Shown: piece by piece, positions 3,565-55,278 of the stretch
Numbering within the stretch: position 1 is the stretch's first letter
How the letters are laid out: every line of letters starts with the position of its first letter
IMG/VR virus record: IMGVR_UViG_3300023274_000001
Coordinates: 124,001 to 188,000 of that record
DNA length: 64,000 bases
Origin: a virus
Reading direction: 5' to 3' (one strand)
Made by a program: the position numbers and the translations under genes
Notes under the pieces: model-generated
Seen by the model: only the letters and a program-made list of their open reading frames with translations
Database searches by the model: none
Told to the model about the DNA's origin: nothing

Positions 3565-3920
3565 CCCACAACTGGAGCTGGACCATCCGGGTCAAGCAGG
3601 GCGATCCGGGATACCGGGTGCACAGCATCGAGGCCCTGATGGCGGCCGTGGCTGGCGCCCTGATGGCGGAGGGTACCGACTCCCGGATGGCCGACACGTT
3701 CGCGCGGTCGGTCCGGGAGCGGGCGCTGGAACAGTGCGAGCAGCGTCGCATGAACCACTCGACGCCGCCGCTGGAGTACCAGCAGATCCTCACCGTCACG
3801 AAGGCGCTTCACGTCACCTCGGACGACCTCCCGGAGGACTCGGACCGGTACTGCGAGGGCCGGACCGAGTCCGGGAGCCGCTGCCCGAGACACCTCAACC
3901 ACCTCGGGGAGTGCCGATGA
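3561..3920 (+). CDS. Unknown protein with C-terminal Cys/His cluster
   Basis: 119 residues from GTG 3561. N-terminal beta strand (WSWTIRV), a helical centre, then a C-terminal cluster YCEGRTESGSRCPRHLNHLG with three Cys and two His that could bind zinc. Known family not recognised. Its stop overlaps ATG 3917. Confidence 0.75.
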   Translation: MTHNWSWTIRVKQGDPGYRVHSIEALMAAVAGALMAEGTDSRMADTFARSVRERALEQCEQRRMNHSTPPLEYQQILTVTKALHVTSDDLPEDSDRYCEGRTESGSRCPRHLNHLGECR

Positions 3921-4144
3921 GGTGGGGCGACGACGCCGACGGCGAGCCGGGCCGGGACACGAGCTAGATCAACGTCAGGCCGGGCGTGGCCATCGAGATC
4001 GAGTACAGCTCGACCGAGTACGAGATGGCCCGGCCGGAGGATGAGGTCGACGGGAAGCTGACCGGCCGGATCCGGATCACCCGGGAGAAGATCTTCGACG
4101 CCGACTTCCTGATCGACTCCCTGACGGGGGAAGAGAAGGACTGA
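3917..4144 (+). pseudogene. Small gene interrupted by in-frame amber codon
   Basis: ATG 3917 is coupled to the previous stop in the manner typical of this operon, but the frame meets TAG at 3965-3967 after 16 codons. The same frame then stays open to TGA 4142-4144 with coding-like content (INVRPGVAIEIEYSST, then RIRITREKIFDADFLIDS). It may be a point-mutated gene, a readthrough gene, or a 52-residue gene that starts at GTG 3986. No domain recognised. Confidence 0.5.
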
Positions 4145-4170
4145 TCCGGCCAGACCTGACCGGATACCGA

Positions 4171-4194
4171 GGGGCCCGCTTGACGGCGGGCCCC
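4171..4194 (+). terminator. Terminator hairpin with -35 hexamer as its loop
   Basis: GGGGCCCGC (4171-4179) pairs with GCGGGCCCC (4186-4194); the six-base loop 4180-4185 is TTGACG, which is also the -35 of the promoter for the next gene. CTTCG follows the stem. Confidence 0.75.
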
Positions 4195-4218
4195 TTCGCT
4201 GTACGATGGCCTAGGTCA
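4180..4218 (+). promoter_or_regulatory. Promoter and palindromic operator for 4234 unit
   Basis: TTGACG (4180-4185), 16-base spacer, TACGAT (4202-4207), then TGGCCTAGGTCA (4207-4218), one copy of the recurring near-palindrome. The palindrome would cover the transcription start, which fits a repressor site. The -35 lies inside the upstream terminator loop. Confidence 0.7.
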
Positions 4219-4233: not shown

Positions 4234-4710
4234 GTGAAGGCCAGTGAATTCCCGGATGCGCTCCGGGAGTTGAAGATCGAAGGCGCCACCGTGGGACCCG
4301 TGGTGAACAGGGACGGCGAGCCCGCACCGGCAGGGTCCGGTGTGCAGCACGGCTTCCTGGTGACGGGCCAGCACGGCGCACGTATCGCCTGGCAAGTGGC
4401 CACACAGGAGGACGGATTGCTGGCCGGTACGGGCCCTTCTGTGGCCTATCCGTCGAGTGTTCCCGTCGCTCCCGACCGGCTCGTCTGCGCCGACGTGGAG
4501 GCGTCCATCGCCCACTGGGTCGGCAAGAACCTGGGCGAGCACATCAGCGAGATGGTCAGGTACAGCGAGACCCGAGACCGGGGCATTCGCTACGGCCTGC
4601 GCATCGACCTGTACAGCGGGGGCCGGGTGTTCATTCAGGCCCTGTGGATTCTGGAGCCCGGCGAGGAACCGAACCGGGACAACAAGTACCGCATGCGCGA
4701 CGCGGTCTGA
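4234..4710 (+). CDS. Unknown 158-residue protein, first gene of a promoter unit
   Basis: GTG 4234 has GAAAGGGAGAAG just upstream. Mixed alpha/beta composition with a C-terminal strand pair (YGLRIDLYSGGRVFIQALWI). No motif recognised. It is the first gene after the terminator-promoter-operator cassette at 4171-4218. Confidence 0.8.
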   Translation: MKASEFPDALRELKIEGATVGPVVNRDGEPAPAGSGVQHGFLVTGQHGARIAWQVATQEDGLLAGTGPSVAYPSSVPVAPDRLVCADVEASIAHWVGKNLGEHISEMVRYSETRDRGIRYGLRIDLYSGGRVFIQALWILEPGEEPNRDNKYRMRDAV

Positions 4711-4725
4711 CGGAGGAGAAGACGG

Positions 4726-5091
4726 GTGAGCAAGGGCATCAGGGTGCACACGGGCGTGGCACACAAGGACACGCCGAGGGAGCGACCGTCCGCATGGATC
4801 GAGGTGTCGGTTCCGCTTCAGCTCGAAAGCTGGGAGCTGGCCGACGGCCTGGGTGAGCGCTTCCTGCGCAACGAGAGCGGACTGGAGGACGGCGAGCGCC
4901 CGTCCGGTCTGCCGGAGTCCATGACTCAGCAGGAGATTGTCCGGGTCTACAAGGACGAGCTGCTGTACTGGGGGACGAATCTCGGAACCTGGTCGGAAGA
5001 CCTCAGCCCCGAGGCCACGAAGGAGACCACCGGCTGGCTCATGGACATCGTCCTGGCCGCCTTCCCGGAGATGAAGGGGTACGACCGGTGA
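4726..5091 (+). CDS. Unknown 121-residue protein
   Basis: GTG 4726 follows GGAGGAGAAGACGG. N-terminus beta-like (AWIEVSVPLQL); the rest is helical and acidic. No family recognised. Coupled to the next gene by GTGA. Confidence 0.75.
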   Translation: MSKGIRVHTGVAHKDTPRERPSAWIEVSVPLQLESWELADGLGERFLRNESGLEDGERPSGLPESMTQQEIVRVYKDELLYWGTNLGTWSEDLSPEATKETTGWLMDIVLAAFPEMKGYDR

Positions 5092-11330: not shown

Positions 11331-11346
11331 CCCACGGGTCACAGTG

Positions 11347-11376
11347 AAGGGGCTCCGGTTGCGACCGGGGCCCCTT
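11347..11376 (+). terminator. Terminator hairpin with -35 hexamer as its loop
   Basis: AAGGGGCTCCGG (11347-11358) pairs along 12 bases, with one U-G, with CCGGGGCCCCTT (11365-11376). The loop 11359-11364 is TTGCGA, which is the -35 of the following promoter. CTGC follows the stem. Confidence 0.75.
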
Positions 11377-11402
11377 CTGCGTATCGTCTTTGACCTAGGC
11401 CA
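11359..11402 (+). promoter_or_regulatory. Promoter and palindromic operator for 11419 unit
   Basis: TTGCGA (11359-11364), 17-base spacer, TATCGT (11382-11387), then TGACCTAGGCCA (11391-11402). Same order of parts as at 4171-4218: terminator loop as -35, -10, palindrome across the likely start. Confidence 0.7.
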
Positions 11403-11418: not shown

Positions 11419-11703
11419 GTGAGCGAGAACGAATTCGAAGCCCTGGCCGATGAGTTACGGGCTTCCTGGGACGGCGACCGGGCCCGCTGGGACGATCTCC
11501 GCGAGGAGCTGACGGAGAAGCTGCTCTGCCTGCGCTGGGACGGCGACCACCGTCTCCTCCTGGAGCAGCACACCAGCAAGCAGGCGGCACTGATCGCCAC
11601 CACGTACGGCCGCAGGCAGGACGATCGGATCCGGTACGCCGTGATCCTGGAGCGAAGCCTGGCATCCGGCCGCATGGAGACGAAGAGGATGGAGCCCTCG
11701 TGA
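11419..11703 (+). CDS. Unknown 94-residue protein, first gene of a promoter unit
   Basis: GTG 11419 after GATGGGAGAG. Charged and helical with several Trp (ELRASWDGDRARWDDLREEL). No domain recognised. Coupled to 11700. Confidence 0.75.
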   Translation: MSENEFEALADELRASWDGDRARWDDLREELTEKLLCLRWDGDHRLLLEQHTSKQAALIATTYGRRQDDRIRYAVILERSLASGRMETKRMEPS

Positions 11704-14826: not shown

Positions 14827-14845
14827 GATAGTGTGGCCTAGGTCA
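14827..14845 (+). promoter_or_regulatory. Palindromic operator with candidate -10
   Basis: TGGCCTAGGTCA (14834-14845), identical to the copy at 4207-4218, preceded by GATAGTG, which could serve as -10. I see no good -35. It lies just before a 26-residue ORF. Confidence 0.6.
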
Positions 14846-15780: not shown

Positions 15781-15806
15781 TGACCTAGGCCGCCTGATGG
15801 TAGACT
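15781..15806 (+). promoter_or_regulatory. Palindromic operator and candidate -10
   Basis: TGACCTAGGCCG (15781-15792) and, 8 bases later, TAGACT (15801-15806). No clear -35 is seen. Depending on which -10 is used, the palindrome sits across the start or upstream of it. Confidence 0.55.
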
Positions 15807-24362: not shown

Positions 24363-24391
24363 AAAAGAGGGCCCCTCTGGGGCCCTCTTTT
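24363..24391 (+). terminator. Strong intrinsic terminator
   Basis: AAAAGAGGGCCCC, loop TCT, GGGGCCCTCTTTT: a 13-base perfect stem with a T run on the right side. One of the clearest terminators in the window. Confidence 0.85.
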
Positions 24392-27562: not shown

Positions 27563-28068
27563 TGGCGAACTGGCCCGAGCCCCACGAGAACGTGAGCGGC
27601 GTGGATCGCACCATCGACGACCTGCTCAGCCTGGACCCGGCAGCCCTGCGCCGCCGGGTCGTCATCCTCGACATCGCCCGGTCTCTGTGGCAGGCGACTC
27701 TGCGGGGGGCCCACAACGAGTACGGCCGGGATGCGTACGAGCGCATGAGCAAGCCGCGCATGGGTGACCTGGTCGTCGAGACGATGGGCATGGCCCACCC
27801 CTCGAAGGCCGACCGTGACGGCAGCACCCTCGCCATCCACAGCTTCGGCATCATGCTCGGCGAGCGGACCGAGTGGGCCTGCACGAACGAGAAGTGGCGC
27901 GAGTACGTTGAGGAGGATCCCGATCTCACCGACGACGACCGGGCCACCGATACGGCGGTCTACGTCCAGTACGGTCCGAAAGCCCAGGACATCTGCCGCT
28001 GGGTGAACTGTTCGATCATCGCCCTGCCGACCGGCATGCTGCACCACACCGCAGATCAGCAGCCCTGA
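27562..28068 (+). CDS. Unknown 168-residue protein
   Basis: ATG 27562 after GGAGAAGGAAGGACC. Mixed helices (LRRRVVILDIARSLWQATL) and an acidic centre (EEDPDLTDDDRATDT). No domain recognised. Last gene of the first rightward block. Confidence 0.8.
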   Translation: MANWPEPHENVSGVDRTIDDLLSLDPAALRRRVVILDIARSLWQATLRGAHNEYGRDAYERMSKPRMGDLVVETMGMAHPSKADRDGSTLAIHSFGIMLGERTEWACTNEKWREYVEEDPDLTDDDRATDTAVYVQYGPKAQDICRWVNCSIIALPTGMLHHTADQQP

Positions 28069-28178
28069 GTTTTTTCCTCCGGTTCGCGTTTCTCCGGATT
28101 CCTTGCGGCCGACCACTCGGGCGATCGAGAATGAGTGTGCTCACGAGGCGCCTTCACCGACCCGGACTGGCCCCTCCA

Positions 28179-28229
28179 GAACCCCGCTGCCCGGCTCTTG
28201 CCCAGCCGACTTCACCGGCAGCGGGGTTC
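28179..28229. terminator. Hairpin between converging blocks
   Basis: GAACCCCGCTGCC (28179-28191) and GGCAGCGGGGTTC (28217-28229) form a 13-base perfect stem around a 25-base loop, placed between the ends of the rightward and leftward blocks. Probably a bidirectional terminator. Confidence 0.65.
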
Positions 28230-28236
28230 GCCCATC

Positions 28237-29001
28237 TCAGCTCACGTCCATGTTCGGGTACCGCTTCTTCACGGCCGCGCGCACCTTGCGCTTGTCCTCG
28301 TCGGACCCGAACTGCTCGACCCGGGACAGGGCGCTGCGGGCCCGAGCCGGGGTGTCGATGGGGTACTTGCGGCCCGGCAGGGCGAAGGCGGAGTCCGGCA
28401 GCTTGTTGCGCTTGTCGGCGTTCAGTGGCGCTTCCTGGAGGTCGCTCTCCCCCATGTAGCTGTACTCGTCCTCGTCGGGGTCGCCGTACTCGTAGTCGTC
28501 GACCGGCGGTTCGGCCATCGGGTCGCCGTACTGGTCCTCGATCGCCTGCTGGAGGTCGTCGAGAGTGTCGCCGTCCACGAACTGGCTGAGCACGGCGAGC
28601 GCCATCCGCGCGTCGTCCTCGCAGGGGAAGGAGGACATGTTCTCGCGCACGAACTCGGCCGCCGCCTCCTTCTGCTCCTCCTCGTCGCCCTCGCCCTTCT
28701 TCTGGAGCCACGGCGGCAGGGCTTCGAGCAGTCCGGACTTCTCCAGGGTGGCGCGCGGCTTGATCTGCGGACTGGTCGCCTCCTGCGCCGTCTCCCAGGG
28801 GCGCTGCGACTCGTCCATGCCGCGCTTGCGGCTGGCCGTCCCGCCGGGGTAGTCGGCCTCCTGCTGGGTCCGGAAGCCGATGCCGTTCCGGGTGAACCGC
28901 TTGTCCTTCACCGCCGTGCGCATGCCCACCGGCATGTCCGAGCTTGCCGCCTCGCGCAGGCCGGTCGTCTTCAGGCTGTGACTGTCGTATCCGTTGGCCA
29001 C
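28237..29001 (-). CDS. Unknown protein with C-terminal DUF6582-like motif
   Basis: 254 residues from ATG 29001. The C-terminal 50 residues (LPDSAFALPGRKYPIDTPAR, SALSRVEQFGSDEDKRKVRA, KKRYP) match a short module common in actinophage and bacterial proteins, DUF6582 as I recall it. The middle is very acidic (DDYEYGDPDEDEYSYMGES); the N-terminus is basic and polar. Role unknown. Last gene of the leftward block. Confidence 0.75.
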   Translation of the reverse strand: MANGYDSHSLKTTGLREAASSDMPVGMRTAVKDKRFTRNGIGFRTQQEADYPGGTASRKRGMDESQRPWETAQEATSPQIKPRATLEKSGLLEALPPWLQKKGEGDEEEQKEAAAEFVRENMSSFPCEDDARMALAVLSQFVDGDTLDDLQQAIEDQYGDPMAEPPVDDYEYGDPDEDEYSYMGESDLQEAPLNADKRNKLPDSAFALPGRKYPIDTPARARSALSRVEQFGSDEDKRKVRAAVKKRYPNMDVS

Positions 29002-30986: not shown

Positions 30987-30998
30987 CTGCCTAGGCCA
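30987..30998. promoter_or_regulatory. Palindrome in divergent region
   Basis: CTGCCTAGGCCA has the core GCCTAGGC and one perfect right half of the recurrent operator. It lies between the leftward TerD unit and the rightward unit at 31173. CTATCCACA follows at 31001, one base off a DnaA box, probably by chance. Confidence 0.5.
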
Positions 30999-39365: not shown

Positions 39366-39423
39366 GTTCTTCCCTCTCCGAAGTACCTTGCCATTGAGGC
39401 ATGTTGGTCCTTCGATTCTAACA

Positions 39424-39477
39424 TGGCCCAGGCCACTGGGGATACGAGAACGGGCCCCTCCGTCGAGGAGAGGCCCG
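39424..39477 (-). promoter_or_regulatory. Terminator-promoter-operator cassette, minus strand
   Basis: Hairpin CGGGCCTCTCC / GGAGGGGCCCG (39477-39467 and 39461-39451; 11 pairs) ends the deaminase unit. Its loop with one stem base reads TCGACG (39466-39461), a candidate -35; 16 bases later TATCCC (39444-39439), then 3 bases and the palindrome TGGCCTGGGCCA (39435-39424). TAGAAT at 39420-39415 is an alternative -10. Confidence 0.6.
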
Positions 39478-39481
39478 TCAC

Positions 39482-43191: not shown

Positions 43192-43220
43192 CCTAGGGCC
43201 GCGAATTTCGCGGACCTAGG
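43192..43220. promoter_or_regulatory. Paired CCTAGG sites in one large inverted repeat
   Basis: CCTAGG at 43192 and again at 43215 are joined by CCGCGAA/TTCGCGG, so the whole 29 bases form an inverted repeat with one mismatch. It overlaps the leader of the 43178 gene. Related to the recurrent palindrome but as a double site; it could also fold as an RNA hairpin. Confidence 0.55.
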
Positions 43221-47754: not shown

Positions 47755-47822
47755 AGCCCCAGCTCTCAACCGGGGCTCCGTTTCCTTCTGTTGAGACTAC
47801 CAGATGGCCTGGGCCATGTCAG
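47755..47822 (-). promoter_or_regulatory. Promoter with palindrome in its spacer, plus leader hairpin
   Basis: On the minus strand CTGACA (47822-47817), which contains the TGA stop of the primase gene, then a 17-base spacer holding TGGCCCAGGCCA (47816-47805), then TAGTCT (47799-47794). AGCCCC...GGGGCT forms a hairpin in the leader. Here the operator lies between -35 and -10. Confidence 0.7.
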
Positions 47823-49991: not shown

Positions 49992-50014
49992 AGCCTACTA
50001 CATGGCCTGGGCCA
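49992..50014 (-). promoter_or_regulatory. Palindromic operator and candidate -10
   Basis: TGGCCCAGGCCA (50014-50003), then 5 bases, then TAGGCT (49997-49992); TAGAAG at 50020-50015 is a weak -35. The arrangement matches 47794-47822: palindrome in the spacer. Confidence 0.6.
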
Positions 50015-54816: not shown

Positions 54817-55199
54817 TGGCGGCCGACGGAGCGGCGAGCCTGCGGGCGGACCAGAAGAAGGCCGAGGAGCTGTGCATCCGGCTCGAACGCCTGCTGCGGG
54901 AGAGCGGCCTCTGCGATGACGAGGTGGTCGCCCCGATGTGCGTCGTCACGCACGACAACCGGGTGACGGTCAGCCTGGACATGCGTCCTCACGCCTGCGA
55001 GAAGGATCTGAAGAACCTCATGACCAGGCTGACCGGATCCCGGAAGCCGTGCACCCGGTGCCAGGTGAATTTCGAGGGGCAGCGCGAACGCATCGCCGCC
55101 CTGTATCCCCGGATGGTGGAGGTTCTGGGCCGCGAGGCGCAGATCATCTACCGCTACCCCCGGGACGCCTACCCCTTCAGGGTCATGCTCGCCACCTGA
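54816..55199 (+). CDS. Unknown protein with Cys cluster
   Basis: 127 residues from ATG 54816, overlapping the previous stop. Helical N-terminal third (ADQKKAEELCIRLERLLRES), strand VTVSLDMRPHACEKD, then KPCTRCQVNFEG. Resembles the 54442 product in order of parts. Function unknown. Confidence 0.75.
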   Translation: MAADGAASLRADQKKAEELCIRLERLLRESGLCDDEVVAPMCVVTHDNRVTVSLDMRPHACEKDLKNLMTRLTGSRKPCTRCQVNFEGQRERIAALYPRMVEVLGREAQIIYRYPRDAYPFRVMLAT

Positions 55200-55234
55200 A
55201 CTTGTTGCGATGGCAGCCAAGTTCAGGATAGGCT
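55195..55234 (+). promoter_or_regulatory. Promoter and inverted repeat of the toxin-antitoxin unit
   Basis: CCTGAACTTG (55195-55204) and CAAGTTCAGG (55218-55227) form a 10-base inverted repeat. TTGCGA (55205-55210) begins its loop and is the -35; TAGGCT (55229-55234) follows after 18 bases. The repeat covers the stop of the preceding gene and could be both terminator and antitoxin operator. Confidence 0.65.
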
Positions 55235-55278
55235 CCTCGTAGGAGGTGGGCACGGCCCACCAGTGGGAGGGAGAGACC

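Follow-up and report, generated by a model that had tools for sequence, protein, structure and literature searches.

Two candidate terminator-promoter cassettes and a shared putative operator palindrome in Streptomyces cluster BM phages

Two intergenic segments of a Streptomyces phage genome are probably composite cassettes, in which a GC-rich hairpin ends the upstream transcript, the TTG in the hairpin loop is the -35 element of the next promoter, and a palindrome lets a DasR-like protein switch that promoter. These segments, here called sites 1 and 2, lie in a window of 64,000 nucleotides that covers bases 124001-188000 of a viral record of 188,697 bp. The nearest named relatives of the window are the Streptomyces phages Frankenweenie, Kela, JustBecause, Kradal, and Satis. 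Published announcements assign Frankenweenie, JustBecause, and Satis to cluster BM, and the record belongs to this group of Streptomyces phages, not to the T4-like myovirus set. Eight genomes were compared: the window's own record, Frankenweenie, Kela, JustBecause, Satis, and three IMG/VR contigs (including G002 and G003; G001 is a 76-kb fragment). Beyond these eight, contigs L088 and L092 are true relatives; the pattern is also matched by L091 and L093, which have no comparable GC hairpin.

Site 1 spans positions 4169-4218 of the plus strand. Its terminator-like hairpin, GAGGGGCCCGC-TTGACG-GCGGGCCCCTT (4169-4196), starts 24 nt past the stop codon of the upstream ORF (TGA, 4142-4144) and has an RNA folding energy of -27.2 kcal/mol (z -3.9). 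An earlier note on this DNA had described TTGACG as the six-base loop of this hairpin and as a -35 hexamer located 16 bases before TACGAT. Comparison bears this out. Indeed, the candidate -35 hexamer (4180-4185) is invariant in 8/8 genomes and in contigs L088 and L092, and the candidate -10 hexamer TACGAT (4202-4207) is likewise invariant in 8/8 genomes, with a spacer of 16. One correction concerns the fold, in which the outer bases of each supposed six-base loop pair, leaving the four-base loops UGAC at site 1 and UGCG at site 2. The operator palindrome TGGCCTAGGTCA (4207-4218), found by the operator scan, covers the predicted start site and is followed by a gene with a GTG start (4234-4710), a homologue of Frankenweenie gp308, of unknown function, that is present in 8/8 genomes. 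In the orthologous alignment of the eight genomes, site 1 is nearly unchanged from GGGGC through GGTCAAGG, and the single stem change, C to T, leaves a G.U pair. Contig L088, whose flanks are more diverged, retains the site with one spacer change. The upstream neighbor, gp309, has no match in G003, Satis, Kela, and JustBecause, and the cassette is still present there. In the window, the gp309 homologue (3917-4144) carries an in-frame TAG at codon 17 (3965-3967) that its relatives do not have; it may correspond to a broken gene, a later start, or a sequence error.

Site 2 (11346-11402, plus strand) has the same arrangement. Its terminator-like hairpin, GAAGGGGCTCCGGT-TGCG-ACCGGGGCCCCTTC (11346-11377), has a folding energy of -29.6 kcal/mol (z -6.0). 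The candidate -35 hexamer TTGCGA (11359-11364) occupies the loop plus its closing pair and reads TTGCGG in several relatives; the candidate -10 hexamer TATCGT (11382-11387) becomes TATCTT in Satis. The loop TTGCGA, 17 bases before TATCGT, had also been noticed from the single sequence, and this spacer is found in 8/8 genomes. The operator scan places the palindrome TGACCTAGGCCA at 11391-11402, ahead of a gene with a GTG start (11419-11703) that comparison with the relatives identifies as a homologue of Frankenweenie gp290. One pair of the stem varies: most genomes have T.G there, G003 has T-A, and Satis has C-G. gp290 has no match in Satis, Kela, and JustBecause, where the cassette is nevertheless present. 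Thus, gene content varies on one side of each cassette, before site 1 and after site 2. The annotated TTG start of Frankenweenie gp290 (record position 165106; window position 11359) is the site 2 -35 hexamer itself, and the GTG at 11419 is a likelier start for this gene. The annotated start would make the hairpin coding; this reading was rejected because, in Kela and Satis, a deletion of 2 bp between the -10 box and the operator would cause a frameshift.

The palindrome, which the earlier note had missed, links the two sites to a larger set of promoters. With the 12-bp consensus TGRCCTAGGYCA, which abuts or nearly touches the -10 boxes of sites 1 and 2, a scan of the own genome at a fixed threshold gives 21 sites, against 2.0 expected and at most 6 in 50 shuffles. 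The operator sites form 22 orthologous families, most of which are present in all 7 or 8 genomes. A -10 box, chosen by eye and then checked in every genome, was assigned in 16 families; TANNNT is present throughout in 16/16 of them, with the palindrome just downstream or just upstream of it. Within the window, the operator scan and -10 conservation give, on the plus strand, a further copy of TGGCCTAGGTCA beside TAGTGT (14834-14845) and TGACCTAGGCCG after a terminator-like hairpin and before TAGACT (15781-15792) and, on the minus strand, operators beside TAGACT (30987-30998), upstream of TAGTCT (47805-47816), and upstream of TAGGCT (50003-50014). The virion block (12.3-46.8 kb) and the lysis genes of Frankenweenie contain no operator site.

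Several observations on these and neighboring promoters are worth recording. The operator promoter at position 4829 of the own record, outside the window (Frankenweenie 95401), reads TTGACC, 18 bp, TAGAGT, with its -35 inside the palindrome, and points at the tRNA-Ile region. The 5' leaders in two operator families, own_121037 (outside the window) and own_171805 (window position 47805), and in their relatives contain strong GC hairpins, placed after the promoter and before the ribosome site; the stems are kept and the loops vary. At 43192-43220, a short hairpin (CCTAGGGCCGCGAATTTCGCGGACCTAGG) has a CCTAGG motif on either side, one of them overlapping the next gene's ribosome site; five genomes keep this arrangement.

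The operator promoters also bear on the role of the loop TTG. Across the 16 promoters, TTGACA is matched best at spacers of 17 and 18 (2.26 and 2.06 of 6; about 1.3 at other spacers). In five of the 16 (sites 1 and 2 and families 154987, 30599, and 4829), a conserved TTG stands at a spacer of 16-18, against only two at the other 23 spacers scored. We regard this spacing preference as the best evidence that the loop TTGs may act as -35 elements. At sites 1 and 2, the two hexamers have the 16-18 bp separation of sigma-70-type promoters.

The strongest competing explanation, which we nonetheless consider unlikely, accepts the promoters, with their -10 box and operator, as real and takes the loop TTG as incidental. 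The hairpin would then be an upstream terminator only, and the polymerase would be recruited by the -10 box and flanking contacts, as at the operator promoters devoid of a -35. Most of the 16 operator promoters indeed have no conserved TTG at a spacer of 16-18. Conserved hairpins without TTG are also found at the -35 position, in families 105660 and 19831 and at window positions 24363-24391, where a terminator hairpin that is flanked on either side by T tails and conserved in 8 genomes precedes TACCGT on the plus strand. Finally, Satis has one TTGACG-loop hairpin with no -10 box after it, so that such loops also arise without a promoter. Against this explanation, stem, loop TTG, spacing, and -10 box are kept in 8/8 genomes at both sites; the TTG is invariant in both loops, whereas other terminator loops drift; every genome has spacers of exactly 16 and 17; and the sole change in either loop affects the sixth base of the -35 hexamer. 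For comparison, mean identity over 79 orthologous hairpins is 0.77 in the loops and 0.84 in the flanks, and only 13 of the 79 loops, including those of sites 1 and 2, are invariant. As a block of about 50 bp is nearly invariant, this conservation of the loops is not cleanly separable from that of the whole cassette.

What the hairpins do in RNA is a distinct question. Both are stable and GC-rich and follow a stop codon, as intrinsic terminators do. However, termination is the least certain step of the proposed mechanism because neither hairpin has a clear U-tract after its stem (UUCGCUGU and UUCUGCGU); neither was listed by the terminator scan. Terminators without U tails have reportedly been described in the Streptomyces phage phiC31. 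The missing U-tract would also suit hairpins that do not terminate at all, each inverted repeat being instead a second DNA-binding site centered on the -35, and the stems are perfect or near-perfect DNA dyads. This alternative is improbable in view of three observations. First, the stem variants T.G, T-A, and C-G suit RNA pairing, and pairing is preserved in each of the stem changes seen at the two sites, a small number (three in total). Second, both hairpins come directly after a stop codon and before the start of the next gene, between co-directional genes. Third, the stems of sites 1 and 2 are unlike in sequence and hence do not represent one binding site.

The earlier note had presented the arrangement as a repeated architecture with four examples, which overstates it: there are two loci per genome. 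The scan of related phages that it proposed, for loops matching a -35 before a -10, was carried out on strong hairpins (score of at least 26) of the eight genomes, with TTG in the loop and TANNNT 15-19 bp further on. It returned exactly 16 matches, sites 1 and 2 in each genome. No third TTG-loop site was found in the eight genomes at this score, nor at a looser cut-off in the own genome, Kela, and Satis. Hence, the design is used twice per genome.

The other two proposed examples do not hold. At the minus-strand site with TCGACG (site 3), the hairpin is real, strong, and terminator-like (39449-39479; folding energy -30.0, z -6.0). The candidate loop -35 was rejected because the loop varies among relatives (TGAC, TTGAC, TCGAC, or TGCG) and the proposed -10 is not retained. 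Only the downstream TGGCCTGGGCCATGTTAGAAT is conserved there, a promoter 19 bp further on for which the orthologous alignment and the operator scan place the operator TGGCCTGGGCCA (39424-39435, minus strand) upstream of a supported -10, TAGAAT (39415-39420, minus strand), conserved in 7/7 genomes. The variant with a TTGCGA repeat loop (site 4, 55190-55235) has a folding energy of -25.5 but an AT-containing stem and no T tract, and it is not terminator-like. Three genomes retain its TTG followed by TAGGCT, G002, Kela, JustBecause, and Satis have lost it, and this candidate was also set aside. At sites 1 and 2, comparison thus lends good support to the idea of one compact element that stops one unit and starts the next; at sites 3 and 4, the idea fails.

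The expected enrichment of -35 hexamers in hairpin loops is likewise only partly borne out. The real genome has two TTG-loop hairpins with TANNNT 15-19 bp on, against none in 40 dinucleotide-based shuffles. At the level of loci in the eight genomes, however, a -10 box placed in this geometry is present at 2 of 30 TTG-loop hairpin loci and at 6 of 441 others (Fisher p = 0.086), so that the enrichment by counting alone is weak. The case for sites 1 and 2 rests on conservation and on the palindromic operator, not on counting. Pure chance, whereby two of the numerous GC-rich hairpins would carry a loop TTG upstream of TANNNT by accident, would agree with this p value and with the drift of the site 3 loop through TTGAC-like states, but it is very hard to reconcile with the shuffles, the conservation in 8/8 genomes, and operators abutting both -10 boxes.

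A candidate for the protein that reads the palindrome is encoded by the phages themselves. Frankenweenie gp109 (L019:21777-22511, plus strand), annotated only as a helix-turn-helix protein, contains GntR (PF00392, 3e-7) and UTRA (PF07702, 1e-14) domains, both above cut-offs. Its counterpart in the own record lies at bases 27751-28482, outside the window. Homologues with 81-88% identity to gp109 are found in six other complete or near-complete genomes (7/7 in total), and in these seven genomes the gene is directly downstream of an operator, which lies at its own promoter. In other phage records, relatives are otherwise distant (ZL12, 37%). The best solved match is DasR of S. coelicolor (E 5e-10). 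The structure of the related NagR was solved on the palindrome GTGGTCTAGACCAC, with two arginines reading two operator guanines (PMC4333415). Both guanine-reading arginines align between DasR and the phage protein (R34 and R44), and they do not vary among four BM homologues. Compared with TGGTCT of the NagR palindrome (DasR/NagR operators are named dre sites), the phage half-site TGRCCT has one substitution (T to C at -3) and, at another position, A or G. In contrast, the R-x-R motif that binds phosphate in the effector pocket of DasR (PMC4918961) reads RLR in DasR and RLN in the phage protein, the second Arg being replaced by Asn; the ligand of the phage regulator may therefore differ. A further difference from DasR/NagR is that the phages that carry the gene have no reported repressor: the announcement of Frankenweenie states that this phage has neither integrase nor repressor (PMC10652959). 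From these sequence relationships, the GntR/UTRA protein is the likely binder of the TGRCCTAGGYCA palindrome, and about 21 promoters, including those of sites 1 and 2, are probably controlled by it.

In the mechanism that we favor, the hairpin stem would work in the upstream RNA as a terminator, and the TTG hexamer in the loop DNA would serve the host main sigma factor as the -35 element of the promoter for the next gene. The loop would act as double-stranded DNA only, because the new transcript would begin downstream of the -10 box. As the start site is predicted in or beside the palindrome, a GntR protein bound there would block initiation; the phage DasR-like protein would thus switch the promoter, most likely by blocking. 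An effect of the hairpin on the promoter linked to polymerase pausing, as the earlier note suggested, is possible. A broader picture is offered more tentatively, as we find it rather doubtful as a whole. One captured DasR-type sensor may run about 21 non-structural transcription units in a phage group without a known repressor. In two of these units, a 50-bp cassette may combine termination, initiation, and repression, with the -35 read from the terminator loop and with hairpin, passing polymerase, and regulator coupled.

Related arrangements are known in other phages. PeSLs are composite promoter-terminator motifs of T4-like phages, reportedly the subject of Arbiol 2010 and Comeau 2014. They resemble sites 1 and 2 in packing a stem-loop terminator and a sigma-70-like promoter between genes, the cassette being retained while the gene content next to it changes. 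Sites 1 and 2 are such composites by sequence and would work like PeSLs, yet they fall outside the T4-like set; PeSLs are their closest precedent. The points that appear to set the cassettes described here apart are their occurrence in Streptomyces cluster BM phages, the -35 in the hairpin loop, the operator on the start site, and their number, only two. A passage of PMC4503421 cites PeSLs as motifs of T4-like phages that participate in the shuffling of genes. No precedent for a -35 in a terminator loop was found in the literature searched, which comprised mostly papers outside subscription and did not include the two PeSL papers; the 41 kb of phiC31 hold no such element.

The operator set itself recalls the operators and stoperators of mycobacteriophage L5, since about 20-25 copies of one short site are spread genome-wide, at positions kept among relatives. 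However, L5 stoperators are asymmetric 13-mers in one orientation that serve the immunity repressor of a temperate phage (PMC5712189), whereas the sites described here are palindromes at promoters, on either side of the -10 box, in phages without a reported integrase. They are thus not of the L5 type.

The regulon is at least as interesting as the cassettes: about 20 other operator promoters are linked to sites 1 and 2, and almost none has a -35 in a hairpin loop. With a predicted regulator, its site, and about 21 target promoters, it would give a handle on gene timing in a large Streptomyces phage whose published annotation reports no repressor. The cassettes, for their part, would be a clean natural example of two transcription signals that share one sequence but are read from different molecules, the stem in RNA and the loop in DNA, and these phages can be propagated on laboratory Streptomyces.
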